This document shows, one piece after another, positions 10,383 to 64,000 of a stretch of 64,000 nucleotides of DNA. This stretch comes from Lota lota. Taxonomy: Eukaryota > Chordata > Actinopteri > Gadiformes > Lotidae. The translations under genes were made by a program, and so were the position numbers. The stretch lies in NCBI GenBank assembly GCA_026745465.1, contig JACYXH010000398.1, positions 173,335 through 237,334 on the forward strand, in the 5' to 3' direction. How positions within the stretch are numbered: position 1 is the first letter of the stretch; every line of letters begins with the position of its first letter. A model generated the notes under the pieces. The model made no database searches and was not told the DNA's origin. It worked only from the letters and a program-made list of their open reading frames with translations.

Positions 10383-10725
<343 letters not shown>

Positions 10726-21573: not shown

Positions 21574-21803
<230 letters not shown>

Positions 21804-24537: not shown

Positions 24538-27500
24538 TTAGCCATCAATAGTGAAACACGGTAGTTTATGGTAGGTTCTTGTAGTTTCTGGAAGAGAAGG
24601 CAGAAGAGAGTCAGGACATACAGCCAGCCTCCACATGCAGCAACACTCTGCCTGAAGACTGAAGCCCAGTGGAGCAGCTCTGCAGCTGGTTATTCTCAGA
24701 TGGCGATGAGGTCACAACCAGATACACACAACCAGACACACAGCCAAATACATACCCAGACAAACACAACCAGAGGAGCAAGCTACTGAATACACTTTTA
24801 TAACTATTTTATAATCACGTTTCCATTTAGAATGAGTCTCTACACAGAAGAACATCTTGACAGACTGGATAAGTGTAGGGAGATGGCTGCCATTATCGTG
24901 GTCAAACAAGAACAAAAGTCTTTCAAGCCTTTGTCCCTGCTCTGTGTGGTCATGATGACTCAGTGAGCTACGTTATAAACGCCACTGAGCTGACGTTATG
25001 CTGGCCACATTGCCCCAGCTATGAAAGTAGTGTCTTATATACATGGATAGCTCCATTCTATAATATAATATCTAGAGGATGTTGTTCAGTAGGTCTGCCA
25101 CTCTGGTCCCTCTGCTAGGTAGGCTCTGACTCTCTGCTACAATTAGTTGAAATGTTTTTAATCACAGCCATATCATTTAACTTGGTGTGAGTCAGTAACC
25201 CTTGCAAATCACTGGATATAAATAAAAGATCTATTACTCGTTTACAAAGTGAAACACGTGGAATAAGAACTTACCAGTTCTCTTCCTCTCCAGTTCCTGT
25301 ATAACCTAAAATAAAATGAGAATAAAATATTAACATTGGGTTCATTACAAGATCATCATCTAGTAACTCCACCACTGCCAGCTAGGTTCACACATATTAT
25401 TGTGTTCTGTATCCAACCAGTAATAAGTTGATCATCCAATTCTATATAGAGATAAACAATACAGCAACATGTCAGGACAGCAGTTACTATCATTCAGCAT
25501 AACCATTATACATGTTAGTTTAATGTAACCATGATACATGTTAGTTTAATGTAACATGATACATGTTAGATTAATGTAACATGATACATGCTAGTTTAAT
25601 GTAACATGATACATGCTAGTTTAATGTAACATGATACATGTTAGAGTTTAATGTAATGCTTAAATCCCAGGACTACGAGTGATATTATGAAAAATATGCA
25701 TCCTATTATTATGAACTGCTCAATATATTGTATACATGTAGAATCAGTTGAATCAGTTCCTGGTTTCCACTCTGAATTAGCCTCTACACAGAAGAACATC
25801 TGGACAGACTGAATAAGAGTAGGGAGACGGCTGCCATTATTGTGGTCAAACAAGGACAAAAGTGATGGAAGCGTGCTTCCACACCAGAGCTGTTTGGTCC
25901 GTTTGAATCTAACCCTGGAGTTTCCTCCGATGGCATCTTTCGTTTGGGGTGGTGTGTCATTTGAACTCTAGTTTGGTCCAAACTAAACAACTGTGGTCCA
26001 CTTGAAAACGGGGTTCTATGTCCGCTTCCAGGTGAACTCTGGTTTGGTTTGCTTTAGGTTTTGAACGTGATTCTACACAACTATAACAGCGGTCAAGCTA
26101 GCCGTCACTCACAACTCCGTGGTGAAGCCAGCCGCCCCTAAATTTGGAGTGCACGCGTATTCTATCCTTTATGGCAAATGCATTTAAACGGCCAAGCTCA
26201 AGCAGATATGGAGAGTTAGCGACTTTTTAAATGTGACTACGTCCGGTTTTCACAATAAAGGGTTAACACTGGGTATGTACAAAAACTGCAGTGCCTACAC
26301 ACTTAAATAAAATCAAGCAATTTTTACTTTTTATCATTTTAGAGAATAAAAAGTCCCACATTATTACATTGAGATGACTTTATGTCTGAAACTTGCTCTA
26401 AAAACAATTAGCTGTATAAGTTCTGACAGTGGGTGATATATTTGAGATCAGGACAACTCTGAAAACCGGACATAGTCACATGTGAAAAGTCTAACTCTCC
26501 ATGTCAACTCTCGCTTGGCTGTTTCAATGCATTTGCCATAAAGGATAGAATATGCGTGCACTCCAAATTCAGGGCCGGCTGGCTTGACTGCAGTCAACTA
26601 TAGGAAGCGAACCAACACTCAATGCCTTGTGGGTTGAATGTGCACTTTTTTCGCTTACTGGAAATAATATAAAAGCCGATTCAGCCAGGTATACGTGAAC
26701 TTTTCAGAGATTAAAGTGAGTCAGACGTGGTGCAGCCAGGAGGTGAAAGCACTTATCGAAATATGTCCTAAGGAATATATAAAGACATTTTTGCGGCTTA
26801 TACAATTGTGTGTCACCAATTGCTTGTTTTTAAATTATTCAGTTAAGGAATGGTGGAAGTTCCTCCCAATTATTTTTAATTTGTAGGAACACCAAAGCAA
26901 AATGTAAAAACCAAAGACAGCACAAAGTCGTTCCATTAATATTGTCCGCAACTAGGAAGCGTTGTGAGTTTCCCTCGGAGGTTCTGTCCAATAGACGAGC
27001 AAAGTAGAATATTTGCTTCGCTTTTGGTGAACGCACTTTTAGGTGGACCAGATTGTAAACAAACGCCTCGCGGTCGGGCGAACCGCAAACTTTTTAAGTG
27101 ATTTTGATTTTGACTTTTTTTGCGAGTGATTCAGCATCAACCGAAATTCGCCATCAGCCGGCGGCGCCAAGCCGTGTCATCCATATCATTTAACTTCTGT
27201 TCGTGTCTTTGCAGTGACTTTGTATGTATTCACAACACACCTTCGTGTTTGGTGTGAACTCACGGTAAGAGTCCAGTGTGAACGCTAACCGAACCAAATT
27301 AAAATGCAACAAAGTATCACCTTCACCCTGAGTCGGACCGAGTCTACGAACTAAAGGAGTGAAAGCGACCTTTCTACCCTTTGTCCCTGCTCTGTGGGGT
27401 CATGATGACTCAGTGAGCTACGTTATAAACGCCACTGAGCTGACGTTATGCTGGCCACATTGCCCCAGCTATGAAAGTAGTGTCTTATATACATGGATAG

Positions 27501-38199: not shown

Positions 38200-38255
38200 T
38201 CAGTGACTGATGCAGTAGAGCGACTGGTTGCTTTCCTGTTCCAGTGGTGTCAGTT
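38200..38255 (-). CDS. Spare terminal exon, type Y (possible alternative tail of gene 4)
   Basis: Acceptor CCTTCTCTTCCAG intact. In the frame set by exon 7 it reads ELTPLEQESNQSLYCISH and stops at 38200. It lies 3.1 kb beyond the type X terminal exon of gene 4, so it could serve as an alternative last exon. Confidence 0.45.
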
Positions 38256-41355: not shown

Positions 41356-44300
41356 TTAGACTTCAGGATGTCCTGTGAGTGGATCCAGGCTCTGGTCATC
41401 ATCATGATCATCGATAGTTACAGCATGGCTAGTTATGGTATGTTCTTGTAGGTCACTGGTTGGTTCAGGACTGTCACTGGACATTAGCGGTGTCGTTTCT
41501 GGAAGAGAAGGCAGAAGAGAGTCAGGACATACAGCCAGCCTCCACATGCAGCAACACTCTGCCTGAAGACTGAAGCCCAGTGGAGCAGCTCTGCAGCTGG
41601 TTATTCTCAGGTGGAGATGAGGACACAACCAGGCACACACAGTACCACGCCACACAACCAGGGACACACAACCAGCTCTAGATATTTTGGTGCCCTAGAT
41701 GAGATTAGGATTTGGAAACATAAACACATCTGAAGCATAATTATAGATAACGGTTGACCAGTACTGTTCAATTACACGAGTGAAAAAAAGGTCAAGAACC
41801 TTGGTTTAAATTAATTGTGGTGAGTTACGTATGTTCATAACTGATTTAATATAATTATAGCAAAAATGTGTCTGGATTAGGCCATATTGACATTAGTTAC
41901 ATAACTGCAGCTGTAACATAGAAATAACACAATTCACCTGTAGCAGGATGTGTTGCACTGGAAGTAGATGGAGTGCTGGATGTTGCTTGACCTGCAGGCT
42001 GTATCCAAACACACAGTTCATCCATACTGTTACACCACTGCATTAAGTCCTTTGTCATTCTACTGCATATAAGGTAGCACTGTATAAATACACTTTATAT
42101 AATTTGACTAAGACCTACATTTAATTAGTAACAAGGTGTAACTAACATTCAACAATAAAAACAATATAATAATGACATGATAATTGGCTGAACGTACATG
42201 CTCTGTAGAGAGGAGAGGTGAAGATGGGAGAACAGATGCCTCTTCTACAGCAGGTGTGCGCTTCGGTGGATATTTCCTGAATGCAGCTGGAGAGTTATAG
42301 AGTAGATAAAGTTAGCCTATTACAAATAAAAACATGTTGCTGCAGCTGAAGAGTAGCTAGCTAGCTAGCCACTACAAATGAAGGCTCTCCAGTTTTCTAA
42401 ATAGCACACCTGAAGGCTTGGACCTTTTCATTGTGGAAAACTGATCAGTCGGATCGGTTCAGAGCAGCGTGCCTCGCGCTTTCTGACGTTTTTTCACCGT
42501 GCATAAAAGTTAAAATATGTTCAACTTTGGGCGCTGGGCCCAGGGCAGCACCGCTCATCAACTAAACAATAGACGTAACAAAATGTCCAACAACGTTGAG
42601 AAACCTTCGAAATTACATTTTTACAGTTCTAAGTTTAAATGGCACAAGACAACAAGCTCAAAACCGCTCAGAGCAGATCTCACTGCGCTCAGAGCAGGAG
42701 CCGCTCTCACAGATCGCTCGGAGTTGATCTCACAGAGCGTCCGGAGCCGCTCTCACAGAGCGCTCTCACAGAGCGCTCTCACAGAGCGCTCTCACAGAGC
42801 GCTCTCACAGAGCGCTCTCACAGAGCGCTCTCACAGAGCGCTCTCACAGAGCGCTCTCACAGAGCGCTCTCACAGAGCGCTCGGAGCCGCTCTCACAGAG
42901 CGCTCGGAGCCGCTCTCACAAAGCGCTCGGAGCCGCTCTCACAGAGCGCTCGGAGCCGCTCTCACAGAGCACTCGGAGCCGCTCTCACAGAGCGCTCGGA
43001 GCAGCTCTCAAAGAGCGCTCGGAGCCGCTCTCACAGAGCGCTCGGAGCCGCTCTCACAGAGCGCTCGGAGCCGCTCTCACAAAGCGCTCGGAGCCGCTCT
43101 CACATAGCGCTCGGAGCCGCTCTCACAGAGCGCTCGGAGCCGCTCTCACAGAGCGCTCGGAGCCGCTCTCACAGAGCGTTTGGAGCCGCTCTCATAAAGC
43201 GCTCTGAGCCTCTCTCACAGAGCGCTCAGAGCCGCTCTCATAAAGCACTCTGAGCCGCTCTCACAGAGCGCTCAGAGCCGTTCTCACAGAGCGCTCGGAG
43301 CCGCTCACACAGAGCAGCTCTCACAGAGCCGCTCTCACAGAGCGCTCGGAGCCGCTCTCACAGAGCGCTCGGAGCCGCTCTCACAGAGCGCTCGGAGCAG
43401 CTCTCACAGAGCGCTCGGAGCAGCTCTCACAGAGCGCTCGGAGCAGCTCTCACAGAGCGCTCGGAGCAGCTCTCACAGAGCGCTCGGAGCAGCTCTCACA
43501 GAGCGCTCGGAGCCGCTCTCATAAAGCGCTCTGAGCCGCTCTCACAGAGCGTTCGGAGCAGCTCTCACAGAGCGCTCTGAGCCGCTCTCACAGAGCGCTC
43601 GGAGCCGCTCTCACAGAGCGCTCGGAGCCGCTCTCACAGAGCGCTCGGAGCAGCTCTCACAGAGCGCTCGGAGCCGCTCTCACAGAGCGCTCGGAGCCGC
43701 TGTCACAGAGCGCTCGGAGCCGCTGTCACAGAGAAAGCGGTTCTCTAAACTTGCGTCTGCGCTGTCTTGGTGCTTGGGGTTTCTGCACTTCAAATGAGAC
43801 GGGGGATTTCTGTTACTCTACATTAAATAGACAAGCTTTGATGTGGATATAGCATCGCTGGCCCTTCTCACATCTCTGACTTGATGTGATGCGCATCAAA
43901 CGGTAACCCATCCCCCCACTTTCAGTGCACAAAGTAGGAAGACGGCTGCCATTATCGTGGTCAAACAAGAACAAAAGTCTTTCTAGCCTTTGTCCCTGCT
44001 CTGTGTGGTCATGATGACTTAGTGAGCTACGTTATAAACGCCACTGAGCTGACGTTATGCTGGCCACATTGCTCCAGCTATGAAAGTAGTGTCGTATATA
44101 CATGGATACCTCCATTCTATAATATAATATCTAGAGGATGTTGTTCAGTAGGTCTGCCACTCTGGTCCCTCTGCTAGGTAGGCTCTGACTCTCTGCTACA
44201 ATTAGTTGAAATATTTTGAATCACAGCCATATCATTTGACTTGGTGTGAGTCAGTAACCCTTGCAAATCACTGGATATAAATAGGATAGACAATGATTCA

Positions 44301-47300
44301 TAAATAACAAGACATCAGGCAATAAACACATCTGAAGCATAAATGATAGATAACGGTTGACCAGTACTGTTCAATTACACGAGTAAAAGAAGGTGAAAAA
44401 TGGTCTTGGTATGCAATTTCTTTGATGGGAATAAGTCTTTTTATGACTCCTGTAGAAATTTTGAATAAATATAGATGGTTGCAGTCTAATATATAGTCCA
44501 ATAGATTCCCTAGCATCCATTTGTGGACAAAACATTCCAGATGTCCAGGGTGAGATACGCATGTTCATAACTGATCGTGAATATTTGATAGAATTATAGC
44601 CAACATTTTTACATAACTGCAGCTGTAACATACAATTAACAGAACTCACCTGTAGCAGGCTGTGTTTCACTGGAAGAAGCTGGAGTGCTGGACGTTGCTT
44701 GACCTGCAGGCTGTATTCAAACATACAGTTCATCCATACTGTTACACCACTGCATTAAGTCCTTTGTCATTCTACTGCATATAAGGTTGCACTGTACAAA
44801 TACACTTTATATAATTTGACTAAGACCTACATTTAATTAGTAACAAGGTGTAACTGTAACATTCAACAATAAAAACAATTATAATAATGACAAAATAGCA
44901 GTGTATTATCAATTGCACAGAGACCACAAATAATTGGCTGAACGTACATGCTCCTTAGGGAGAGGTGAAGATGGGAGATCAGATGCCTCTTCTCCAGCTT
45001 CTGGGGGCTTCTGCATATCTGGACAGTTATAGAGAAGATAGAGGTCTGACTTTTCGATACGCTCAGCCATCTCATTCCTTCGGTGGTGGTTAGCAGTGGT
45101 AGCTAGCTGTCGTGCGGGGAATGGGAACGACCCCTTTTCTTCTCCCTCCTCCTTTTCCCTCCAACTCTCTGTTCCCTTCTCAGCCCCCTCCCCTTTTCTG
45201 AACCTGATCTATCAGCTGAACTAGGGGTGAGGTAAAGGTACTTTCATTGTCACATACACATACAAATAGTGAGATTTTCCCTCTGCATTTAACCCATCCC
45301 TCAAGGGAGCAGTGGGCAGCCAATCACAGCGCTCGGGGAGCGGTTGGGGTTAAGTGTCTTACTAAGGACACCTCGACATAGTTAGGGTTGAAGTCGGGGC
45401 TCAAACTAGCAACCTTCCGATTTTTGCCAGCCGGTTGCCAGTCCACCCGCCTTAACTCCTGAGCTAATGTCCCACCCCATCATCTTCCCACCATGAACTC
45501 CCCAAGAGTCTCTTCCATGTTAGTCCTGCAGGGTCGCTATAATATAATATCTAGAGGATGTTGTTCAGTAGGTCTGCCACTCTGGTCCCTCTGCTAGGTA
45601 GGCTCTGACTCTCTGCTACAATTAGTTGAAATGTTTTGAATCACAGCCATATCATTTAACTTGGTGTGGGTCAGTAACCCTTGCAAATCACTGGATATAA
45701 ATGAATGATCTATTACTCATTTACAAAGTGAAACATGTAGAATAAGAACTTACCAGTTATCTTCCTCTCCCGTTCCTGTGCTTTCTTTTTTTATAAAGTA
45801 AAATGTGAATAAAATATCAACATTGGGTTCATTACAAGGTCATCTTCTAATAACTCCACCACTGCCAGCTAGGTTCACACGTATTATTGTGTTCTGTATC
45901 TAACCAGTAATAACACTTACCTTGTAAAGTTGATCAAGCAATTCTATATAGATATAAAGAATACAGCAACATGTCAGGACAGCAGTCACTATCATTCAGC
46001 ATAACCATGATACATGTTAGTTTAATGTAACCATGATACATGTATGAGTTTAATGTAACATGATACATGTTAGTTTAATGTAACATGATACATGTTAGTT
46101 TAATGTAACATGATTTTACAAAGTGAAACATGTGGAACAAGAACTTACCAGTTAACTCCCTCTTCTGCTCCGGTGCTTCCTTTTTCAATAAAATATTTCT
46201 TTTTATAAAATATCAACATTGGGTTCATTACAAGGTCATGATCTAATAACTCCACCACTGCCAGCTAGGTTCACACATATTACTGTGTTCTGTATCCAAC
46301 CAGTAATAACACTTACCATCTCAAGTATTAGATGAGCCAATGCTATATAGAGATAAACAATACAGCAACATGTCAGGACAGCAGTCACTATTATTCAGCA
46401 AAACTATGATACATGTTAGAGTTTAATGTAACCATGATACATGTTTGTTTAATGTAACCATGACACATGTTAGTTTAATGTAACATGATACATGTTAGTT
46501 TAATGTAACCATGATACATGTTAGTTTAATGTAACCATGATACATGTTAGTTTAATGTAACCATGATACATGTTAGTTTAATGTAACCATGACACATGTT
46601 ACTTTAATGTAACATGATACATGTTAGATTTAAATGTAACCATGACACATGTTAGTTTAATGTAACATGATACATGTTAGATTTAAATGTAACCATGATA
46701 CATGTTAGTTTAATGTAACCATGATACATGTTAGTTTAATGTAACCATGATACATGTTAGTTTAATGTAACCATGACACATGTTAGTTTAATGTAACCAT
46801 GACACATGTTAGTTTAATGTAACATGATACATGTTAGATTTAAATGTAACCATGACACATGTTAGTTTAATGTAACATGATACATGTTAGATTTAAATGT
46901 AACCATGATACATGTTAGAGTTTAATCAAACGTTTATCTCCCAGGACTATGATTGATATTATGGAAAATATGCATGCTATTATTATGAAGTGCTCAATAT
47001 ATTCTATACATGTAGAATCAGTTCCTGGTTTCCACTCTGAATTAGCCTCTACACAGAAGAACATCTTGACAGACTGAATAAGTGTAGGGAGACGGCTGCC
47101 ATTATCGTGGTCAAACAAGAACAAAAGTATTTCTACCCTTTGTCCCTGCTCTGTGTGGGCATGATGACTCAGTGAGCTACGTTATAAACGCCACTGAGCT
47201 GACGTTATGCTGGCCACATTGCCCCAGCTATGAAAGTAGTGTCTTATACACATGGATAGATCCATTCTATGATATAATATCTAGAGGATGTTGTTCAGTA

Positions 47301-50300
47301 GGTCTGCCACTCTGGTCCCTCTGCTAGGTAGGCTCTGACTCTCTGCTACAATTAGTTGAAATGTTTTTAATCACAGCCATATCATTTGACTTGGTGTGAG
47401 TCAGTAACCCTTGCAAATCACTGGATATAAATGAATAATCTAATACTCATTTACAAAGTGAAACATGTTGAATAAGAACTTACCAGCTCTCTCCCTCTCC
47501 CGTTCCTGTGCTTTCTTTTTTTATAAAGTAAAATGTGAATATAATATCAACATTAGGTTCATTACAAGGTCACCATGTAATAACTCCACCACTGCCAGCT
47601 AGGTTCAAACTAATTATTATGTTCTGTATTCAACCAGTAATAACACTTACCTTCTCAAGTATTAGATGAGCCAATTCTATATAGAGATAAAGAATACAGC
47701 AACATGTCAGGATAGTAGTCACTATCATTCAGAAAAACCATGATACATGTTAGTTTAATGTAACCATGATACATGTTAGTTTAATGTAACATGATACATG
47801 TTAGAGTTTCATGTAACGCTTACCTCCAAGGACAGTGGTTGATATTATGAAAAATATGCATATTATTATTATGAACTGCTCAATATATTGTATACATGTA
47901 GAATCAGTTGAATCAGTTCCTGGTTTCCCCTCTGAATTAGCCTCTACACAGAAGAACATCTTGACAGACTGAATAAGTGTAGGGAGACGGCTGCCATTAT
48001 CGTGGTCAAACAAGGACAAAAGTCTTTCTAGCCTTTGTCCCTACTCTGTGTGGTCATGATGACTCAGTGAGCTACGTTATAAACGCCACTGAGCTGACGT
48101 TATGCTGGCCACATTGCCCCAGCTATGAAAGTAGTGTCTTATATACATGGATAGATCCATTCTATAATATAATATCTAGAGGATGTTGTTCAGTAGGTCT
48201 GCCACTCTGGTCCCTCTGCTAGGTAGGCTCTGACTCTCTGCTACAATTAGTTTAAATGTTTTGAATCACAGCCATATTATTTAACTTGGTGTGAGTCAGT
48301 CACCCTTGCAAATCACTGGATATAAATACATGATCTATTACTCATTTACAAAGTGAAAAATATAGAATAAGAACTTACCAGTTAACTGCCTCTTCTGTTC
48401 CGGTGTATCCTTTTTCAATAAAATAAAAAGGTAAATAAAATATAAACATTGGGTTCATTACAAGGTCATCATCTAATTACTCCACCACTGCAAGCTAGGT
48501 TCACACTTATTATTGTGTTCTGTATCCAACCAGTAATAACACTTACCTTGTCAAGTATTAGATGAGCCAATGCTAGAAAGAGATAAAGAATACAGCAACA
48601 TGTCAGGACGGCAGTCACTATAATTCAGCATAACCTTGATACATTTTAGTTTAATGGAACATGATATATCATTGAGTTTAATGTAAAATAATACATGTTA
48701 GTTTAATGTAATTTTACCTCCCAGGACTATGATTGATATTATGAAAAATATGCATCCTATTATTATGAACTTCTCAATATATTCTATACATGTAGAATCA
48801 GTTGAATCAGTTCCAATTTTCCACTCTGAATTAGCCTCTACACAGAAGAACATCTTGACAGACTGAATAAGTGTAGGGAGACGGCTGCCATTATCGTGGT
48901 CAAACAAGAACAAAAGTCTTTCTAGCCTTTGTCCCTGCTCTGTGTGGTCATGATGACTCAGTGAGCTACGTTATAAACGCCACTGAGCTGACGTTATGCT
49001 GGCCACATTGCCCCAGCTATGAAATTAGTGTCTTATATACATGGATAGCTCCATTCTATAATATAATATCTAGAGGATGTTATTCAGTAGGTCTGCCACT
49101 CTGGTCCCTCTGCTAGGTAGGCTCTGACTCTCTGCTACAATTAGTTAAAATATTTTTAATCACAGCCATATCAATTATTTTGGTGTGAGTCAGTAACCCT
49201 TGCAAATCACTGGATATAAATAAATGATCTATTACTCATTTACAAAGTTAAAAATATAGAATAAGAACTTACCAGTTAACTGCCTCTCCCGTTGCTGTTC
49301 TTTCTTTTTTTACAAAATAAAATGTGAATAAAATATCAACATTCGATTAATTACAAGGTCATGATCTAATAACTCCACCACTGCCAGCTAGGTTCACACA
49401 TATTATTGTGTTCTGTATCCAACCAGTAATAACACTTACCTTGTCAAGTATTAGATGAGCCAATGCTAGAAAGAGAAAGAATACAGCATCATGGAAGGAC
49501 AGCAGTCACTATCTTTCAGCAAAACTATGATACATGTTAGTTTAATGTAACCATGATACATGTTAGACTTTAACATAACACGATACATGTTAAAATTTAA
49601 TGCAACATGATACATGTTAGAGTTTAATGTAACCATGATACATGTTAGTTTAATGTAACCTTGATACATGTTAGAGTTTAATGCAACATGATACATGTTA
49701 GAGTTTAATGTAACCATGATACATGTTAGTTTAATGTAACCATGATACATGTTAGTTTCATGTAACCATGATACATGTTAGAGTTTAATGTAACCATGAT
49801 ACATGTTAAGAGTTTAATCAAACGTTTATCTCCCAGGACAATGATTGATATTATGAAAAATATGCATCCTATTATTATGAACAGCTCAATATATTCTATA
49901 CATGTAGAATCAGTAGAATCAGTTCCTGGTTTCCACTCTGAATTAGCCTCTACACAGAAGAACATCTTGACAGACTGAATAAGTGTAGGGAGACGGCTGC
50001 CATTATCGTGGTCAAACAAGGACAAAAGTCTTTCTAGCCTTTGTCCCTGCTCTGTGTGGTCATGATGACTCAGTGAGCTACGTTATAAACGCCACTGAGC
50101 TGACGTTATGCTGGCCACATTGCCCCAGCTATGAAAGTAGTGTCTTATACACATGGATAGCTCCATTCTATAATATAATATCTAGAGGATGTTGTTCAGT
50201 AGGTCTGCCACTCTGGTCCCTCTGCTAGGTAGGCTCTGACTCTCTGCTACACTTAGTTGAAATGTTTAGAATCACAGCCATATCATTTAACTTGGTGTGA

Positions 50301-53300
50301 GTCAGTAACCCTTGCAAATCACTGGATATAAATAAATGATCTATAGCTAATTTACAAAGTGAAGCATATGGAATAAGAACTTACCAGTTAACTCCCTCTT
50401 CTGTTCTGGTTTATCCTTTTTCAATAAAATACAAATGTAAATAAAATATCAACATTGGGTTCATTACAAGGGCATCATCTAATAACTCCACCACTGCCAG
50501 CTAAGTTCACACATATTATTGTGTTCTGTATCCAACCAGTAATAACACTTACCTTCTCAAGTATTAGATGAGCCAATGCTATATAGAGATAAACAATACA
50601 GCAATATGTCAGGACAGCAGTCACTATCATTCAGCATAACCTTGATACATGTTAGTTTAATGTAACATGATACATGTTAGACTTTAATGTAACATGATAC
50701 ATGTTCAAGTTTAATGTAACATGATACATGTTAGAGTTTAATGAAACCATGATACATGTTAGTTTAATGTAACATGATACACGTTAGTTTAATATAACAT
50801 GATACATGTTAGACTGTAATGTAACTTGATACATGTTAGAGTTTAATGTAACATGATACATGTTAGTTTAATGTAACCATGATACATGTTAGTTTAATGT
50901 AACCATGATACATGTTAGACTTTAATGTAACATGATACATGTTAGACTTTAATGTAACATGGTACATGTTAGAGTTTAATGTAACATGATACATGTTAGT
51001 TTCATATAACACTTACCTCCCAGGACTATGATTGATATTATGAAAAATATGCATCCTATTATTATGAACAGCTCAATATATTCTATACATGTAGAATCAG
51101 TTGAATCAGTTCCTGGTTTCCACTCTGAATTAGCCTCTACACAGAAGAACATCTTCACAGACTGAATAAGTGTAGGGAGACGGCTGCCATTATCGTGGTC
51201 AAACAAGGACAAAAGTCTTTCTAGCCTTTGTCCCTGCTCTGTGTGGTCATGATGACTCAGTGAGCTACGTTATAAACGCCACTGAGCTGACGTTATGCTG
51301 GCCACATTGCCCCAGCTAGGAAAGTAGTGTCTTATATACATGGATAGATCCATTCTATAATATAATATCTAGAGGAATTTGTTCAGTAGGTCTGCCACTC
51401 TGGTCCCTCTGCTAGGTAGGCTCTGACTCTCTGCTACAATTAGTTGAAATGTTTTGAATCACAGCCATATCATTTGACTTGGTGTGAGTCAGTAACTCTT
51501 GCAAAACACTGGATATAAAGAAATGATCTATTACTCATTTACAAAGTGAAACATGTGGAATAAGAACTTACCAGTTAACTCTCTCTTCTCTTTTGGTGTA
51601 TCCTTTTTCAATAAAATACAAATGTAAATACAATATCAACATTGGGTTCATTACAAGGTCATCATCTAATAACTCCACCACTGCCAGCTAGGTTCAAACT
51701 AATTATTGTGTTCTGTATGCAACCAGTAATAACACTTACCTTCTCAAGTATTTGATGAGCCGATGCTATATAGAGATAAAGAATACAGCAACATGTCAGG
51801 ACAGCAGTCACTATCATTCAGCAAAACCATGATACATGTTAGTTTAATGTAACCATGATACATGTTAGTTTAATGTAACCATGACACATGTTAGTTTAAT
51901 GTAACCATGATACATGTTAGTTTAATGTAACCATGATACATGTTAGTTTAATGTAACCATGATACATGTTAGTTTAATGTAACCATGATACATGTTAGAG
52001 TTGAATGTAATGCTTACCACCCAGGACTATGAGTGATATTATGAAAAATATGCATGCTATTATTATGAACAGCTCAATATATTCTATACATGTAGAATCA
52101 GTTTAATCAGTTCCTGGTTTCCACTCTGAATTAGCCTCTACACAGAAGAACATCTTGACAGACTGAATAAGTGTAGGGAGACGGCTGCCATTATCGTGGT
52201 CAAACAAGGACAAAAGTGATGGAAGCGTGCTTCCACACCAGAGCTGTTTGGTCCGTTTGAATCTAACCCTGAAGAGTTTCCACCGATGTCATCTTTCGTT
52301 AGGGGTGGTGTATCATTTGAACTCTAGTTTGGTCCAAACTAAACCACTGTGGTCCACTTGAAAACGGGGTTCTATGTCCGCTTCCAGGTGAACTCTGGTT
52401 TGGTTTGCTTTAGGTTTTGAACGTGATCCTACACAACTATAACTGCGGTCAAGCTAGCCGTCACTCGCAACTCCGTGGTCAAGCCAGCCACCCCTAAATT
52501 AGGAGTGCACGTGTATTTTATCCTTTATGGCAAATGCATTTAAACGGCCAAGCACAAGCAGACATAGAGAGTTAGCGACTTTTCACATGTGACTATGTCC
52601 GGTTTTAAAAATAAAGGGTTAACACAGGGTATGTGCAAAAACTGCAGTGACTACACACTTAAATAAAATCAAGCATATTTTCCTTTAAAAAAAAATCATT
52701 TTAGAGAATGAAAAGTCCCACATTATGACATTGAGATGACTTTATGTCTGAGACTTGCTCTAAAAACAATTTGCTCCATAACTTCTGACAGTGGCTGATA
52801 TATTTGAGATCAGGACATTTTTGATATTACAGTGTGTTAATACAATGCCATAACACATGTGTTATTACATTTACAATGTTAATACAATGTGTTATTACAG
52901 CAAGTTTCAGTCATTCTTAGGTAAAAATGTGAGACTTTAATTTTGAAATTCTCTAAAATAACAGTAAAAACGCTTGATTTTGGGTAAATGTATATTCAGA
53001 GTTGTCATTATCTCAAATATATCAGGCATTGTCAGAATTAATTGAGCAATGTGTTTTTACAGCAAGTTTCAGTAATAACGATACTGTAAAAATGCTTGAT
53101 TTGGTTTAAGTGTGTAGAGGATGTTGTTCAGTAGGTCTGCCACTCTGGTCCCTCTGCTAGGTAGGCTCTGACTCTCTGCTACAATTAGTTGAAATGTTTT
53201 GAATCACAGCCATATTATTTGACTTGGTGTGAGTCAGTAACCCCTGCAAATCATTGGATATAAATGAATCATCTATTACTCATTTACAAAGTGAAACATA

Positions 53301-56300
53301 TGGAATAAGAACTTACCAGTTAACTGCCTCTCCTTTTCCTGTTCTTTCTTTTTCTATAAATGTGAATAAAATATAAATATTGGGTTCATTACAAGGTCAT
53401 CATCTAATAACTCCACCACTGCCAGCTAGGGTCACGGAAATTATTGTGTTCTGTACCAAACCGGTAATAACACTTACCTTCTCAAGTAATAGATGAACCA
53501 ATTCTATATAGAGATAAAGAATACAGCAACATGTCAGGACAGCAGTCACTATCATTCAGCATAACCATGATACATGTTAGTTTAATGTAACATGATACAT
53601 GTTAGTTAATTGTAACATGATACATGTTAGTTTAATGTAACATGATACAAGTTAGTTTAATGTAAACATGATACATGTTAGTTTAATGTAACGCTTACCT
53701 CCCAGGACTATGATTGATATTATGAAAAATATGCATCCTATTATTATGAACTGCTCAATATATTCTATACATGTAGAATCAGTTCCTGGTTTCCACTGTG
53801 AATTAGCCTCTACACAGAAGAACATCTTGACAGACTGAATAAGTATAGGGAGACGGCTGGAATTATCGTGGTCAAACAAGGACAAAAGTCTTTCTAGCCT
53901 TTGTCCCTGCTCTGTGTGGTCATGATGACTCAGTGAGCTACGTTATAAACGCCACTGAGCTGACGTTATGCTGGCCACATTGCCCCAGCTAGGAAAGTAG
54001 TGTCTTATATAGATGGATAGCTCCATTCTATAATATAATATCTAGAGAATGTTCTTCAGTAGGTCTGCCACCCTGATCCCTCTGCTAGGTAGGCTCTGAC
54101 TCTCCGCTACAATTAGTTGAAATGTTTTGAATCACAGCCATATAATTTGACTTGGTGTGAGTCAGTTACCCTTGCAAATCATTGGATATAAAGGAATGAT
54201 ATATTACTAATATACAAAGTGAAACATGTGGAATCAGAACTTACCAGTTAACTGCCTCTTTGTTTCCTGTTCTCTCTTTTTCTATAAAATAAAATGTGAA
54301 TAGAATATCAACATTGGGTTCATTACAAGGTCATCATCTAATAACTCCACCACTGCCAGCTAGGTTCACACATATTATTGTGTTCTGTATCAAACCAGTA
54401 ATAATACTTACCTTCACATGTCTTAGACAAAGAAATGCTATAAAGTGATAAACAACACAGCAACATGTCAGGACAGCAGTCACTATTATTTAGCATAACC
54501 ATGATAAATGTTACTTTAACGTAACCATGATACATTTTAGAGTTTAATGTAACCTTGATACATGTTAGAGTTGAATGTAACCATGATACATGTTAGAGTT
54601 TAATGTAACCATGATACATGTTAGAGTTTAATGTAACCATGATGCATGTTAGTTTAATGTAACAATGATACATGTTAGAGTTTAATGTAACCATGATACA
54701 TGTTAGTTTAATGTAACGTGATTCCGGTTAGTTTAATGTAACATGATACATGTTAAGATAAGAGTTAAGAGTTTAATAAAACGCTTACCTCCTATGATTG
54801 ATGTCAACACTAGTAAGCATCCTATTATTATGAACACAATAGTAACATATTCAATACATTTAGAATCAGTTGTATCAGTTCCTGGTTTTGTCTGCACCCC
54901 TCCCACAGAATAACATCTGAAATGAGAATGACAAAACCACGTTTAGTTCTTAGGGTAGGATAGTGTATATACGTTCTTAGGGTAGGATAGAGATATGGTG
55001 TTGGGACTCCTGGTCCAAAGGTACTGGGTTCGATCCTCAATGCCCACTACCTGTAGGCCTTCAGGTAGGTTCTTGAGCTACATGCCTAACCCCCACCTGC
55101 TCCTAATGACCTGTATCTACCTGGGCCTGAATTCACTGTATGCTGCTTTGCAGAAAATTACTAAATAGTCAATTATATTTATTGTCAAGCATCATTAACA
55201 TTTTAACAATATGTAATTCTGACATTTGTATGATTAAATAGAACAGTAAACAATATGACATTATGACTATTGAATGTATTCTGAGAACAGGCAAACAAAA
55301 GCCACAACAGTGCATGATATATGGCCCAGGCCTAATTCTAAACATACCATTATTGTACTGTCTATATAGATTGTTAAATTAACTCCATGTGGGAGTGTGT
55401 GTGGATGATGGCTGGTTTAAGCAGCCTCACCTGGCCCGAGTCAGACTGATTGGAGTCTGGAGCGAGGTGATGCTGCACACCTGTTGCACATTGAGTAATC
55501 AATGTGCACACCTGTTGCACATTGAGTAATCAATGTGCACAGGTTAAACCAGCCATCACCGCACACACTCAAGGAAAGCTCTCCGGCATGGCAGCATGGA
55601 GCACCATCTGCGTGCCTCATTCTACGCAACCTTTACAATAAACCGGTTTTCCAAAATCACCATCCTGTGTCCATTGGTTCGGAGGAGCCCGAGGAAAGTC
55701 AAGGAGGTGGAGTGGGAAAAGCCACTTAGGTGGTGTGTAGTATGGGACTATGCTACACTCCACTTACATCGTGTGGGGTTGGCATGACGACGTGCCATCT
55801 GAGAATGTTCCATCAGTACATTGAAGGCACTCTGTGTCTTTATCTGCTGTTCCTGTATGAATATACATGTTTTATTTAAACATGACTGTTCTTCGATGTT
55901 GTGTGACCATTTGTGACAACATGTTTGTTTTTGGTTTTATCGGTTAACAGTTAAAATATCACAAGCTCAAATTCACCAACATTGTAGGAAAAAGGAAATA
56001 GAGAATTGTAATTCAAAGGAGTTGCTGGCTACTGAGTCATTGCCAGACTGTTGTAGATGATCATGGAGTAACTTACACACTAATACATTCAATGGTAAGA
56101 AGCTGGATGGCCCTTTATAGGGCTGAATAGATTGCAGCAGATGTCAATTTATTTATCAATTTAGCTATAATTAATGTTGACATACAGTTTATATGTCAAC
56201 ACTAACCTGTTTGACTGATGTATTGACCAGGACTGCAAACCGTGTGTCTCTGAGCGGCCATACATCCCCCTCTGTTAGAGTCAGTACAGAAGTATCCATC

Positions 56301-57898
56301 CAGGGGCTCACACAGAGCATCTGATGTTGATGTACACGACTTCTTCACCTTCAGGCCGAGACCTGTCAATCACAACAGTTACAGAGAAACCTCAGAGGGC
56401 ACAACTTCTCCCAACTGAGATCCACCTGAACCAACGTTAACATCATAACATAATCAACAGTATATTTAAAATAATCAAATTATAGGAATGTACCTGTGTC
56501 ACACTTTGTACAGTTAGAGCATTGCTTCTGTCCATTAAGGCCTTTTTTGAAAGTACCTTTGGTGCAATCTGTGCACTTTGTTATGCTGATCTCTGTGCAG
56601 TCCATTTCAACATGCATTCCTGTTGGAAAGAACGTTTTAAATATGTTGTAGATTAATAGATAGTTTATGTTGTACATGTTGCCTATTTCTGGACAGTCCA
56701 TGTTGTAGATTTGTTGACAGTATACATTGTATATGTTTTAGATTAGTAGACAGCATAGTTTGTCTATCTTTTAGAGTAGTAGACCATATATGTTGTATAT
56801 TTGTAGACAGTATATGTTGTACATAAACCAGACGAAACCTGTTAATTGCATACCAAATTTTACGCCACAATTTTTGCGATTATCCAATATATGCCATTAT
56901 CCGAAGAGGAGTTTAGAAAACCAATTACAGGCTACAGGTACATTCCACTGGGGAATAACTTCTTCGACGTCTTCATGAGAACTCTCAAAGACCCTTTTCC
57001 TTCTTGGGTTTACGTTGCTTTGGTGAGCACTGAGAAGCTTATCCTTTTGTTTCCCGATCCTGGAAATCTACGGCTTTGAGACGCCAAAACACTCCTTTTC
57101 TAACTCTTTCAAAACATTAATTTGGTCAACAAGACACAGGACTTTCGTTTCGACTTTTTTCTGCCATGGCGCATAAAGTCTTGCTAGATATGGCTGTAAC
57201 TAATGAAGATATCAAATCAAATAAACCCACGTGACTAATCTCATCAGAAAAACTTGCCAGGCTTGTGCACATGTAAGAGCAATATCAAGGAAGTTCTGCG
57301 GAGAAAAAGGAACAGGGCCAGGCGATAAAGGCACTTGTTTTAAAGGAGGTGTACTGAGTAGGCGTGGAAGGGTCTTTTGATCGGTCTACTTTTGAAGCAA
57401 GTGTACTTGTTAGAAGACATTTATAGAGTAAACCCGCTGTGAGGTGGACGCCCCGCGGTGATCCTAATGGTTTCGGGATGAGTATGCAATTAGCCGGTTT
57501 ATGCAAATAAGCAGTTCAAACAATATTTATTTGGTAATGTCATATACTTTTAATGGCTATGCATACATCCGATATATGCGTTTATCCAACATGCAATTAA
57601 ACTATTTTGCCTGTATATATTGTTGATTTGTAGACAGTACATGTCGTAGATTCCTAGACAGTATATGTTGTCGATTTATAGACAGTATATCTTGTATATG
57701 TTGTAGATTTGTAGACAGCTTGACAATAATTCATATTTTACGCTTACCAGGAGGACATGCAGGGCAACACTCAAGTCCTACTCTGTACTCATCCAGCAGA
57801 CACCGTGAAGCAACGGCAACGTACAAAGTATTAGAAACTGAACATATTAACATGAATTGTAGAAACATGGTTGCCAGGTTTGTAGGAGCTTCAACCAT
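41356..57898 (-). CDS. tnfrsf14-like: Gene 4: TNFRSF14 (HVEM)-like receptor with expanded tail-exon array
   Basis: Core exons: 57898-57748 (ATG of MVEAPTNLATMF; second ATG 57868 begins MFLQFMLICSVSNTLYV; CRD1 DEYRVGLECCPACPPG), 56619-56494 (126 nt), 56362-56207 (156 nt, ALCEPLDGYFCTDSNRGG, QYISQTG), 55852-55768 (85 nt), 54916-54789 (128 nt, CYSVGGVQTKPGTDTTDSKC, span TIVFIIIGCLLVLTSIIGG), 54437-54412 (26 nt, AFLCLRHVK), 54281-54245 (37 nt, KKREQETKRQLT) and terminal exon 41498-41356 (ETTPLMSSDSPEPTSDLQEH ... GHPEV). Phases 1,1,1,2,1,0,1 give 852 nt, 283 residues, the size expected of an HVEM-type receptor. A type I membrane receptor with three to four CRDs is inferred. Eight tandem cassettes lie between exon 7 and the terminal exon. 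A solo LTR sits 10 nt inside the intron 4 donor. The 5'UTR acceptor AG is AT (57951-57952), with TTTCAG nine nt downstream as a likely replacement. Confidence 0.82.
41700..42440 (-). mobile_element. Transposon-like fragment with three exon-like pieces
   Basis: Minus strand: 42431-42410 (MKRSKPS, donor GTGTGC), 42286-42198 (AAFRKYPPKRTPAVEEASVL, PSSPLLSTEH) and 41991-41938. The opening MKRSKPSGA resembles the start of hAT-related ZMYM1-like proteins common in fish genomes; that is recognition from a short motif and uncertain. The third piece is open in two frames and I cannot fix its phase. No transposase core is present. Confidence 0.35.
42660..43735. repeat. 13-bp and 23-bp GC-rich minisatellite
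   Basis: Starts with about ten 13-bp units (GAGCGCTCTCACA), then 23-bp units joining GAGCGCTCG and GAGCCGCTCTCACA. Same flanks as the 14-bp array at 2104-2735, so the two arrays are alleles-by-descent at paralogous loci with different unit lengths. Overlapping plus-strand open frames are repeat artefacts. Confidence 0.95.
43935..44290 (-). other. Truncated cassette flank
   Basis: Contains the roughly 350-bp sequence found upstream of each cassette transmembrane exon (GACGGCTGCCATTATCG, TTGTCCCTGCTCTGTG, CTAGAGGATGTTGTTCAG) but no transmembrane exon. Its left side is fused to the minisatellite flank at 43.94 kb. Confidence 0.6.
44300..45080 (-). mobile_element. Third copy of the transposon-like fragment
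   Basis: Minus strand: exon-like piece starting at 45069 (MAERIEKSDLYLLYNCPDMQ, then KPPEAGEEASDLPSSPLPKE) with donor at about 44948, and a 54-nt piece at about 44651-44704. The second half aligns with 42198-42286, but the N-terminus differs (MAERIEK instead of MKRSKPS). The element family is not certain. Confidence 0.35.
45222..45480. mobile_element. Dispersed teleost repeat
   Basis: Contains TTTCATTGTCACATACACAT, TGCATTTAACCCATCCCTCA, GGAGCAGTGGGCAGCC and TAAGTGTCTTACTAAGGACA, the hallmarks of a short repeat widespread in teleost genomes. Single copy in this window. Class not assigned from sequence alone. Confidence 0.55.
45754..45943 (-). pseudogene. Cassette C8 of gene 4, transmembrane exon missing
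   Basis: The 23-nt exon 45943-45921 (ELLDQLYK) and the 31-nt exon 45784-45754 (KAQERERKIT) have good splice sites and correct phases. Upstream, the 25/26-bp repeats (46005-46115) run directly into the sequence before the small exon of C7, so the transmembrane exon was deleted. Confidence 0.7.
46149..47048 (-). pseudogene. Cassette C7 of gene 4, donor lost
   Basis: Transmembrane exon 47048-46938 (111 nt, lacks one DST triplet, span FIIIACIFSIISIIVLG) ends GGAG|ATAAAC instead of GGAG|GTAAGC. Followed by exons 46342-46317 (ALAHLILEM) and 46179-46149 (EAPEQKRELT), both with intact sites. A 500-bp 25/26-bp array lies between the first two exons. Confidence 0.75.
47484..47943 (-). CDS. Cassette C6 of gene 4: transmembrane and tail exons
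   Basis: Exons 47943-47824 (120 nt, EANSEGKPGTDSTDST, CIQYIEQFIIIICIFFIIST), 47676-47651 (26 nt, ELAHLILEK) and 47514-47484 (31 nt, KAQERERERA). All donors and acceptors are present; phase 1 in, 1 out. Could be included after exon 7, or be a non-expressed duplicate. Confidence 0.6.
48379..48837 (-). CDS. Cassette C5 of gene 4: transmembrane and tail exons
   Basis: Exons 48837-48718 (EANSEWKIGTDSTDST, CIEYIEKFIIIGCIFFI), 48572-48547 (26 nt) and 48409-48379 (DTPEQKRQLT). The donor of the first is GTAAAA, weaker than the others. A lysine precedes the membrane span. Confidence 0.6.
49273..49949 (-). pseudogene. Cassette C4 of gene 4, donor lost
   Basis: Transmembrane exon 49949-49830 is open but ends GGAG|ATAAAC. 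Without splicing the frame continues into the 25/26-bp repeat as DKRLIKLLTCIMVTLNSNMY before stopping. Downstream exons 49465-49440 (ALAHLILDK) and 49303-49273 (KEQQRERQLT) are intact. Confidence 0.75.
50385..51136 (-). CDS. Cassette C3 of gene 4: transmembrane and tail exons
   Basis: Exons 51136-51017 (EANSEWKPGTDSTDST, CIEYIELFIIIGCIFFIIS), 50578-50553 (ALAHLILEK) and 50415-50385 (DKPEQKRELT), all with GT/AG sites and phase 1 in, 1 out. The 25/26-bp array occupies 50640-51005. Confidence 0.62.
51137..51560 (-). promoter_or_regulatory. Representative cassette upstream flank with TATA-like box
   Basis: Each cassette is preceded on the minus strand by the same roughly 400-bp flank. It holds CATGTATATAAGACAC (TATA-like, here near 51.33 kb), TGAGTCA (AP-1-like, near 51.255 kb) and a 17-codon frame MAAVSLHLFSLSRCSSV that stops inside the transmembrane exon. 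Conservation may only reflect recent duplication, so promoter activity is a guess. Confidence 0.3.
51572..52137 (-). pseudogene. Cassette C2 of gene 4, in-frame stop
   Basis: Transmembrane exon 52137-52018 has TAA in the TDSTDST stretch (the same change as the gene 2 cassette). Exons 51765-51740 (ASAHQILEK) and 51602-51572 (DTPKEKRELT) are intact. Its upstream flank was replaced by the transposon relic at 52212-53110. Confidence 0.75.
52212..53110. mobile_element. Truncated copy of the foldback-type transposon
   Basis: Shares GGAAGCGTGCTTCCACACCA and GGGTTCTATGTCCGCTTCCA with 25866-27320. Right part lost; joined at about 53.11 kb to the CTAGAGGATGTTGTTCAG flank of the next cassette. Confidence 0.5.
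53317..53809 (-). CDS. Cassette C1 of gene 4: transmembrane and tail exons
   Basis: Exons 53809-53699 (111 nt, EANSQWKPGTDSTCIEYIEQ, span FIIIGCIFFIISIIVLGG), 53503-53478 (ELVHLLLEK) and 53353-53317 (37 nt, KKKEQEKERQLT). All sites intact. It is nearest to gene 4 exon 7 (54281-54245), whose phase-1 donor fits the phase-1 acceptor here. Confidence 0.62.
54495..54775. repeat. 25/26-bp minisatellite in intron 5 of gene 4
   Basis: About 10 units, several with the extra GAG. Lies within 15 nt of the donor at 54788. Confidence 0.9.
55388..55757 (+). mobile_element. 370-bp solo LTR in intron 4 of gene 4
   Basis: Begins TGTGGGAGTG, ends ATGCTACA, flanked by CTCCA at 55383-55387 and 55758-55762. Genes 2 and 3 show the empty site (TTAACTCCACTTACATCG). 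An internal 29-bp block starting CACCTGTTGCACATTGAGTA is duplicated in tandem (about 55477-55540). Orientation by AATAAA at about 55.637 kb is opposite to gene 4. Confidence 0.85.
56640..57720. repeat. Intron 1 repeats and small transposon of gene 4
   Basis: TAGACAGTATATGTTGTA repeats (about 56640-56820, 57610-57720) flank a roughly 770-bp insertion homologous to 31305-32095. A 77-codon plus-strand frame (56846-57079) is kept in both copies, but I see no family signature in it. Confidence 0.5.
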
Positions 57899-62294: not shown

Positions 62295-64000
62295 CTAGAG
62301 TGTTTCTCCCCCAAGTCCACTGTCTACTGGGTCTCCAGCTTCTTCTTGTAGGTCACTGGTTGATGTGGTAAAGCCACTGGATTGGTCAGAATATAGGATG
62401 CTCTCCTGTCCCATGGGTGTCAGTTCTGGAAGAGAAGGCAGAAGAGAGTCAGGACATACAGCCAGCCTCCACATGCAGCAACACTCTGCCTGAAGCCCAG
62501 TGGAGCAGCTGGTTACTCTCAGGTGGAACACACACACACACACACACCCCAAATAACCAGACACACAACCAAATATATACAACCACCCTACTAAACAAGA
62601 CACAACTAGCCAGAGGTGCAAGCTACTGAATTATTACTTGTATTTTATCAGAATCAGATATATCACATCATATATCATATGATGTTTCCACTCTGAATTA
62701 GCCTCTACACAGAAGAACATCTTGACAGACTGAATAAGTGTAGGGAGACAGCTGCCATTACCGTGGTCAAACAAGGACGAAGTCTTACACTTTGTCCCTG
62801 CTCTGTGTTTTGTAATGAGTCAAAACAAATTGCTGAGCCAAAACTCAGGCTTGCAAGTGTCCACATTGCAATGACAGTAGTGTCCAAGTTTATAGCCCTA
62901 TCATTTATAATACAGTTGTCATGTGACCACTCTGGCAGGTAGGCTCTGACCTACAGCTTGAATTTGAATTTGAAACATTCAAACTGAGGGTCTGAGGCTA
63001 CCTGCCAGATATGACTTATTTCTGTTCTATGTTAGACCTCCTTTGGTCTATTCTAATTGATGAACTGAAATAAGTGGAGGAAGAGCTTACCGCTTGGCTG
63101 AGGGACTGATGTTACATCCTCGCTTGGTGTTTTCTTGTAAATAAAATATTCACATTCATTATTTTAAAGGTATTACATGTATTAATTGCATTTAAAAAAA
63201 GTGTTATGAGTTATTTACAAGGTGCATCATTTAATAAATATCACAGTATAGGTGCACACACACTCCAGGGTCAAACTAAAGTAATAACACAAACCTGTTT
63301 TTGTTTAAGGGTTTGGTATCCATGCTATATAGTGATAAACAATACAGCAACATGTCAGGACAGCAGCCACCACATGACAGCAGTCACTATCATTCAGCAT
63401 AATGAGCATGATACATGTTAGTTTAATGTAACCATGATACATGTTAGTTTAATGTAACCATGATACATGTTAGTTTAATGTAACCATGATACATGTTAGT
63501 TTAATGTAACATGATACATGTTAGTTTACTGTAACATGATACATGTTAGTTTAATGTAACATGATACATGTTAGTTTAATGTAACATGATACATGTTAGT
63601 TTAATGTAACCATGATACATGTTAGTTTAATGTAACATGATACATGTTAGTTTAATGTAACATGAGACATGTTAGTTTAATGTAACATGAGACATGTTAG
63701 TTTAATGTAACCATGATACATGTTAGTTTAATGTAACACAATACATGTTAGTTTAATGTAACCATGATACATGTTAGTTAAATGTAACACTTACCTCTTA
63801 TTTTCTTCCTCTGAATAATGGTTATGATTATTATTAAAGCCATTAATAGTATGACTCCTGATATTACTCCTGCCACTAGTCCTGTGTGTGCACCATGTTT
63901 TCCACATTCAGAATCAGTTGAATCAGTTCCTGGTTTTATCTGTTTCAGTCCAACAGATTCACATCTGAAATGAGAAGGACAAAACAACACGTTTAGTTTC
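62295..64000 (-). CDS. tnfrsf14-like: Gene 5 (partial): TNFRSF14-like receptor, 3' exons
   Basis: The upstream exons lie beyond the right edge. Exons seen: 63964-63795 (170 nt, CESVGLKQIKPGTDSTDSEC, GKHGAHTG, span LVAGVISGVILLMALIIIIT, then QRKKIR), a 30-nt exon 63324-63295, 63133-63091 (43 nt, KTPSEDVTSVPQPS) and terminal exon 62425-62295 (ELTPMGQESILYSDQSSGFT ... GLGGETL, stop at 62295). The 43-nt and terminal exons join in phase. The 30-nt exon, in the frame set by the membrane exon, reads AWIPNP and then a stop, and its length is 0 mod 3 where paralogues are 2 mod 3, so inclusion truncates the tail. Skipping both small exons keeps the frame (RKKIR then ELTPMG). The membrane exon is closest to gene 3, the 43-nt exon closest to gene 1. 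Confidence 0.75.
62686..62960 (-). pseudogene. Truncated cassette fragment near gene 5 terminal exon
   Basis: Homologous to the cassette flank and the first codons of the transmembrane exon (complement of TCCACTCTGAATTAGCCTCT and ACACAGAAGAACATCTTGAC), then cut off. A similar stub lies at 24825-24925. Both show that cassettes once existed near several gene tails. Confidence 0.6.
63408..63785. repeat. 25/26-bp minisatellite in intron 5 of gene 5
   Basis: About 14 units, regular, ending next to the donor at 63794. Confidence 0.95.

Follow-up and report, generated by a model that had tools for sequence, protein, structure and literature searches.

A tandem array of transmembrane and tail exon copies in an intron of a TNFRSF14-like receptor gene of Lota lota

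Results

A TNFRSF14-like gene with eight tandem units in intron 7

We analyzed a 64,000-nt stretch of Lota lota DNA (contig JACYXH010000398.1, positions 173,335 to 237,334; hereafter the window) and focused on one of its receptor genes, gene 4, and on an array of exon cassettes (C1 to C8) that an initial annotation had placed between exon 7 and the terminal exon of this gene. Gene 4 lies on the minus strand and is an intact TNFRSF14 (HVEM)-like gene. With the array excluded, the model has eight exons (E1 to E7 and the terminal exon), which yield an open frame of 283 residues with no internal stops. E5 to E7 form unit 0, the constant counterpart of the cassettes:

57748..57898, minus strand: E1, start codon, signal peptide, and first cysteines; phase 1 out
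56494..56619, minus strand: E2, cysteine-rich domain exon; phase 1-1
56207..56362, minus strand: E3, cysteine-rich domain exon; phase 1-1
55768..55852, minus strand: E4, cysteine-rich domain exon; phase 1 in, 2 out
54789..54916, minus strand: E5 (unit 0), end of the last cysteine-rich domain and transmembrane (TM) segment; phase 2 in, 1 out
54412..54437, minus strand: E6 (unit 0), juxtamembrane exon, 26 nt
54245..54281, minus strand: E7 (unit 0), tail exon, 37 nt; canonical acceptor and donor
41356..41498, minus strand: terminal exon, cytoplasmic tail and stop; phase 1 in

Pfam TNFR_c6 matches the gene 4 protein in three stretches (E 2.9e-18), showing that cysteine-rich TNFR domains are present, and a hydropathy peak of 2.86 within E5–E7 marks a TM segment that is followed by a tail. 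The closest solved structures are ELR1 (3wvt), HVEM (1jma, 4fhq), and CD40. HVEM (E 6.8e-28 for 1jma) outscores CD40, a ranking by structure-database similarity. A protein search with gene 4 gave 116 hits, headed by TNFRSF14-like or unnamed proteins from codfishes and hakes, of which not one approaches identity; weaker matches came from Lucifuga, Lates, Stegastes, and Thunnus.

The annotated array was confirmed at its coordinates. Eight tandem units occupy intron 7 from the TM acceptor of C1 (53809) to the end of C8 (45754), and self-comparison of the array returned blocks of 0.5–1.9 kb with about 87–94% identity, far above chance. Every unit was said to hold three exons. The two small tail exons are indeed found in all eight, a first one of 26 nt (23 nt in C8) and then one of 37 nt, which becomes 31 nt when a downstream AG is used, but the TM exon (111 or 120 nt) is present in seven only, as C8 begins at the small exon:

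53699..53809, minus strand: C1 TM exon, reading frame open; acceptor and donor present
53478..53503, minus strand: C1 small exon, 26 nt
53317..53353, minus strand: C1 tail exon, 37 nt; canonical AG acceptor, unlike in any other cassette
52018..52137, minus strand: C2 TM exon, TAA in frame
51740..51765, minus strand: C2 small exon, 26 nt
51572..51608, minus strand: C2 tail exon, canonical acceptor lost (TG)
51017..51136, minus strand: C3 TM exon, reading frame open; acceptor and donor present
50553..50578, minus strand: C3 small exon, 26 nt
50385..50421, minus strand: C3 tail exon, canonical acceptor lost (TG)
49830..49949, minus strand: C4 TM exon, donor AT instead of GT
49440..49465, minus strand: C4 small exon, 26 nt
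49273..49309, minus strand: C4 tail exon, canonical acceptor lost (AA)
48718..48837, minus strand: C5 TM exon, reading frame open; acceptor and donor present, donor weaker
48547..48572, minus strand: C5 small exon, 26 nt
48379..48415, minus strand: C5 tail exon, canonical acceptor lost (TG)
47824..47943, minus strand: C6 TM exon, reading frame open; acceptor and donor present
47651..47676, minus strand: C6 small exon, 26 nt
47484..47520, minus strand: C6 tail exon, canonical acceptor lost (AA)
46938..47048, minus strand: C7 TM exon, donor AT instead of GT
46317..46342, minus strand: C7 small exon, 26 nt
46149..46185, minus strand: C7 tail exon, canonical acceptor lost (TG)
45921..45943, minus strand: C8 small exon, 23 nt; TM exon absent from this unit
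45754..45790, minus strand: C8 tail exon, canonical acceptor lost (AA)

Aligned blocks of the cassettes are 86–93.5% identical around the tail exons and 92–97% around the TM exon; the most similar stretch in the array joins C3 and C4 (404 nt, 98.0%). The units can be told apart by their stops, their donors, and small indels, and C2 is preceded by an insertion. A 25–28-bp minisatellite precedes the small exon in unit 0 and in each of the eight units. The 37-nt tail exon falls into two interspersed sequence classes (C1/C4/C6/C8 versus C2/C3/C5/C7), hinting that amplification may have proceeded partly in two-unit steps. Distal intron 7 holds a separate 23-bp minisatellite array of about 42 copies (42697–43733), which a repeat-rich open reading frame region at 2041–2930 resembles.

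A founder junction shared with the sister genes

The TM-bearing units have a common junction, at which intron 7 (up to GTGGAAAC) passes into the interior of exon 5 (from CCAGGAACTG); the two sides have AAAC in common where they meet. In each cassette, the stretch that leads into the TM exon and runs on inside it (in C3, GTGTAG, AGGCTAATTCAGAGTGGAAAC, CAGGAACTG) is similar to exon 5 only from about CCAGGAACTG. The 5′ part of the cassette is intron 7: related sequence occurs in gene 5 (62.7 kb) and gene 3 (24.8 kb) up to GGAAAC, past which genes 5 and 3 diverge toward a terminal-exon copy and the cassettes go on as exon 5. The copy near 62.7 kb had suggested that the cassette TM exon begins with a dispersed repeat or transposon. 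We dropped this idea because both that copy, which lies in gene 5, and the one at gene 3's end are intron that leads to a copy of the terminal exon.

The junction GGAAAC/CAGG was found in six of the seven TM units of gene 4 (it is altered in C5) and also in sister genes 2 and 3, which carry one cassette apiece with the same founder junction as the gene 4 array. Both single cassettes are broken, that of gene 2 by two stops and that of gene 3 by loss of its donor; the in-frame stop of C2 also occurs in the gene 2 cassette.

25665..25783, minus strand: TM exon of the single cassette of sister gene 3, donor lost
14084..14202, minus strand: TM exon of the single cassette of sister gene 2, two in-frame stops
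62684..62808, minus strand: gene 5 intron 7, intronic counterpart of the 5′ end of the cassette TM exons

We infer that the array was founded by one tandem duplication reaching from the interior of exon 5 to the interior of intron 7. Because genes 2 and 3 carry the same junction, and C2 and the gene 2 cassette the same stop, the founder duplication would be older than the gene duplications or would have passed across them. Given a single founder junction, the common phase of the cassettes was therefore set once, not eight times, and we reject eight independent phase matches in favor of descent of the TM cassettes from that junction. Additional terminal-exon-like copies lie at 38243–38357, 21794–21905, and 10605–10694; the gene models do not need them, and they apparently belong to segmental duplications.

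Most units carry a broken splice site or a stop

We scored splice sites on the gene 4 strand with an approximate consensus matrix. Each of the seven cassette TM exons has an intron-derived acceptor with a score of 7.9, which places that of C3 within the top 1.8% of 3837 AG sites on the same strand. TM donors are good in C1, C2, C3, C5, and C6 (6.5–11.6; gene 4's own exons, 6.0–12.5) and dead in C4 and C7, where AT replaces GT. The small exon has good sites in all eight cassettes. The TM exon of C2 has the sole in-frame stop (TAA) among the cassette TM exons. A canonical AG precedes the 37-nt exon in C1 and unit 0 only, the other seven cassettes having TG or AA: the acceptor scores 9.3 in unit 0, 5.4 in C1, and at most 1.9 at either position in the rest, which depend on a weak A-rich AG six bases downstream. 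Hence at least one broken splice site or stop is found in 7/8 units, and the only fully intact cassette is C1. The initial annotation had listed C1, C3, C5, and C6 as intact, which is correct for their TM exons but not for their tail exons, whose canonical acceptor C1 alone retains.

On paper, the frame is kept when a cassette TM exon is joined after E1, E2, E3, E5, or E7, except for C2 with its stop; open frames result for C1 and C3–C7, though C4 and C7 lack a TM donor. Joining E4 to a cassette TM exon gives a stop at codon 175 in 7/7 cases, and the E6 join also stops in 7/7. The annotated phase 1 match thus stands for joins from E5 and E7 (and from E1, E2, and E3) and fails for those from E4 and E6. 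AGs located 47–89 nt upstream would keep the E4 frame in all six cassettes checked (C1 and C3–C7). Because the E4 join stops in every case, a cassette is either an addition to E5 or a substitute for the pair E4–E5, never for E5 alone via its own acceptor. The path from E7 through a cassette E6–E7 pair to the terminal exon is open in all eight units; the frame is lost when a cassette E6 is included on its own (phase 0 out). The proposal that any inclusion keeps the frame is true on paper for C1, C3, C5, and C6; C2 has its TAA, and C4 and C7 their dead TM donors.

Cassette exons diverge much like introns

We compared changes per site between exons and flanks in the seven TM-bearing units, C8 not being included. 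The values were 0.19 for the TM core, 0.27 for the small exon, and 0.49 for the tail exon, with 0.24 for the upstream flank, 0.24 for the pre-E6 flank, and 0.31 for intron B; the post-E7 flank, at 0.65, is inflated by C7, which is non-homologous there. The TM core did not differ clearly from the upstream and pre-E6 flanks (p 0.42 and 0.45). The tail exon evolved faster than the upstream flank, the pre-E6 flank, and intron B (p 0.007, 0.017, and 0.052) and slower than the C7-inflated post-E7 flank (p 0.07). When C8 was added, mean pairwise differences were 0.134 for the small exon, 0.198 for the tail exon, and 0.109 for intron B.

The ratio of nonsynonymous to synonymous differences (pN/pS) of the TM exon was 0.77, stop codons being skipped. 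From stop-making fractions, about 1.1 stops are expected in the TM exons from 21 changes and about 2.8 from 46 changes; one was seen. We take the TM and small exons to be indistinguishable from neutral sequence, and the tail exon is somewhat fast, in part through its two coexisting sequence classes.

Related proteins vary in the tail

Isoforms X18, X21, X23, and X24 of Gadus macrocephalus (P0018, P0030, P0033, and P0041) have 244 residues in common and then different tails, and isoform numbering up to X24 suggests heavy alternative splicing of a TNFRSF14-like gene in this species. In two G. chalcogrammus proteins, a tail segment of about 59 residues occurs twice in tandem: in P0078, a receptor, the repeats are 51% identical, and in P0121, which has no ectodomain, the halves are 68% identical. 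Self-comparison of four Gadus proteins by blastp found no repeat; direct comparison of half against half in P0121 and P0078 found it. The start of P0121 looks like a translated minisatellite intron. All these tail variants are database gene models, known from protein sequence alone. They suggest that the interval between the juxtamembrane part and the terminal tail is a recurrent site of tail change.

The cassette tail LAHLI-LDKKKDTPEQKRQLT resembles LANQIRLKRKK-TPEEKRGLT in P0006 (short-query E 0.002), and a cassette tail matches ANLILDKK in P0029 (short-query E 0.004). A motif search for cassette-TM words found none in the 116 proteins. A 441-residue cassette query, scored against only the 7994 candidates sharing most words with it, gave 17 proteins at E ≤10 with a coverage of 8–16%, about one unit. 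Finally, a hydropathy screen found no tandem TM of the cassette kind in the 86 screenable proteins of 122; the other 36, without a recognizable end of the last domain, were left out. The screen flagged nine of the 86 as having two segments past the end of the last domain. By eye, seven were overlapping windows of one segment, and P0048 and P0049 have C-terminal hydrophobic stretches unrelated to the cassette TM. Merluccius polli P0001, a model of 481 residues, contains two receptor ectodomains and has a TM-like segment behind each of them; it may represent fused neighboring genes or a model error.

Discussion

Taken together, these results are best accounted for by one founding duplication, its amplification, and neutral decay of an array that the main transcript skips, with low-level use of cassettes possible; we give this reading a probability of about 0.6. 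A tandem duplication from the interior of exon 5 to the interior of intron 7 would have founded the array, and the resulting unit (the 3′ part of exon 5, E6, E7, and proximal intron 7) would have been amplified to eight copies, the last without a TM exon. Each cassette TM exon would then be a hybrid, in which the core of exon 5 is fused to ∼20 nt from what was once intron 7, including an acceptor-like AG that was already in place. The main transcript would join E7 straight to the terminal exon, and the array would be maintained by unequal recombination while it decays. Where the sites are good (throughout C1, and in C3, C5, and C6 for the TM exon), low-level inclusion may occur: an included cassette would place a second hydrophobic segment after the E7 tail, and one joined from E3 would give a receptor without the membrane-proximal cysteine-rich part.

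Several observations weigh against this reading. Four of the seven TM exons (C1, C3, C5, and C6) are open and have good sites, the small exon keeps both splice sites in all eight cassettes, and the E7 donor is intact in all eight. The TM core is slightly less variable than intron B (p 0.048); we do not accept purifying selection on the cassettes, the core being below intron B alone and not clearly below the upstream and pre-E6 flanks. pN/pS reaches 1.41 across the eight tail exons, and synonymous changes are absent among the seven cassette small exons, both of which diversifying use could also explain. The small exon of unit 0 (54412–54437) differs from every cassette at 8–10 of 23–26 sites, whereas the neighboring intron differs by just 5–10%; the excess has p ≤0.003 in 8/8 comparisons, which are not independent. 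This does not look neutral for the period before amplification and may reflect recombination between paralogues, an option raised by the likeness of the cassette small exon to a Gadus tail (ANLILDKK, P0029), or selection, perhaps positive, before amplification. Lastly, the Gadus database models carry tandem or alternative tail segments at the corresponding place.

The strongest alternative is that the cassettes form a working optional set, in which splicing from E7, E5, or E3 passes through at least one cassette before it reaches the terminal exon, so that membrane and tail segments are repeated or altered. The open frames of C1 and C3–C7 (C4 and C7 donorless), the TM acceptor score of 7.9 in all seven copies (C3 in the top 1.8% of 3837 AGs), and the tail isoforms of G. 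macrocephalus and tandem tail repeats of P0078 and P0121 all speak for it. We nevertheless consider it unlikely: purifying selection is not clear, the canonical E7 acceptor is confined to C1, TM cassettes joined to E4 by way of their own acceptor do not replace E5 in frame, a second TM would presumably put the signaling tail across the membrane, and none of the retrieved proteins has tandem TM cassettes. The same evidence divides on the initial proposal of receptors with variable membrane and tail segments, which the frames open on paper and the Gadus tail isoforms favor, and which the single breakpoint inside exon 5, the intron-like divergence, the broken sites, the broken cassettes of genes 2 and 3, and the failure to retrieve a tandem-TM protein do not. 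That a duplication through the TM exon was co-opted as optional hybrid exons, with a 5′ end and acceptor taken from former intron, by which splicing can insert another membrane segment or leave out the membrane-proximal domain, strikes us as rather doubtful. If it were true, splicing would switch one TNFR-type receptor between signaling, tail-inverted, and shortened forms.

That only the small tail exons matter is a long shot. E6–E7 copies would be added after E7 with the TM exon skipped, each copy lengthening the tail by ∼20 residues; the path is open in 8/8 units, and the cassette tail peptides resemble the Gadus tails of P0006 and P0029 (E 0.002 and 0.004), yet seven of eight cassettes need the weak A-rich acceptor and E6 alone, without E7, breaks the frame. 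An assembly artefact, with a repeat collapsed or falsely expanded, is very improbable: tandem repeats are in general a recognized cause of assembly errors (according to excerpts of PMC6868369), and the minisatellite in the units and the 98.0% identity of C3 and C4 over 404 nt would fit one, but the other blocks are at most 93.5% (tail) or 97% (TM) identical, genes 2 and 3 share the founder junction, and the units differ in stops, donors, small indels, and the insertion before C2, so a trivial assembly duplicate is unlikely. The array is unusual and a switchable-receptor function possible but unproven; the sequence leans toward neutral decay with at most a few usable cassettes, C1 first.

Gene 4 resembles TNFRSF14 (HVEM) and TNFRSF5 (CD40) in its cysteine-rich TNFR domains, TM segment, and short tail, and differs from them in the tandem TM/tail exon array, of which the accessible parts of the literature on such receptors gave no example. 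The initial annotation knew of no such array in the TNFR superfamily; our search of open-licence literature, within the text it makes available, likewise found no description, but the results do not establish a novel switchable receptor array. The Gadus TNFRSF14-like proteins vary at the same place, from the juxtamembrane part to the terminal tail; in those inspected, however, the repeats are tail only, whereas the gene 4 array repeats the TM. The variable Gadus segments would correspond to phase 1-1 exons, judging from protein alone.

In Drosophila Dscam, the choice at exon 17 is a choice of TM exon. Excerpts of the literature describe Dscam as having mutually exclusive clusters of exons 4, 6, 9, and 17 (PMC1397879) and mrp as having eight interchangeable exons (PMC9741552). 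Like these genes, gene 4 has adjacent homologous copies between constant exons. Unlike them, its cassette TM exon cannot replace E5 in frame via its own acceptor, its units have three exons, and the copies, when tested, showed no coding constraint. Chelicerate short Dscam genes, as described in excerpts of PMC4835542, have tandem two-exon cassettes in the 5′ ectodomain part with their own promoters. They share with gene 4 multi-exon tandem cassettes within a cell-surface receptor gene; on that description, the gene 4 cassettes differ in being 3′ partial exons inside an intron. In arrays of the Dscam type, any copy can take the place of the constant one in frame, which the gene 4 cassettes do not do through their own acceptor (the E4 join stops in 7/7). 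Gene 4 shows the common founder junction, intron-like exon divergence, and disabling changes of a neutral array.

The cod order is known for its rebuilt immune system. Codfishes have lost MHC (major histocompatibility complex) class II, according to excerpts of PMC5894186 and PMC9276791. Their TNFRSF14-like proteins make up much of the list of 116 hit clusters, isoforms included. The array suggests how this gene cluster may reach new exon combinations: duplications break within exons, introns supply acceptors, and tail exons turn over at a single intron. Should as few as one cassette be in use, gene 4 would be a natural example of an exon born by intragenic duplication in an immune receptor; should none be, it would caution that tandem exons may match in phase and have open frames and yet be neutral by-products.

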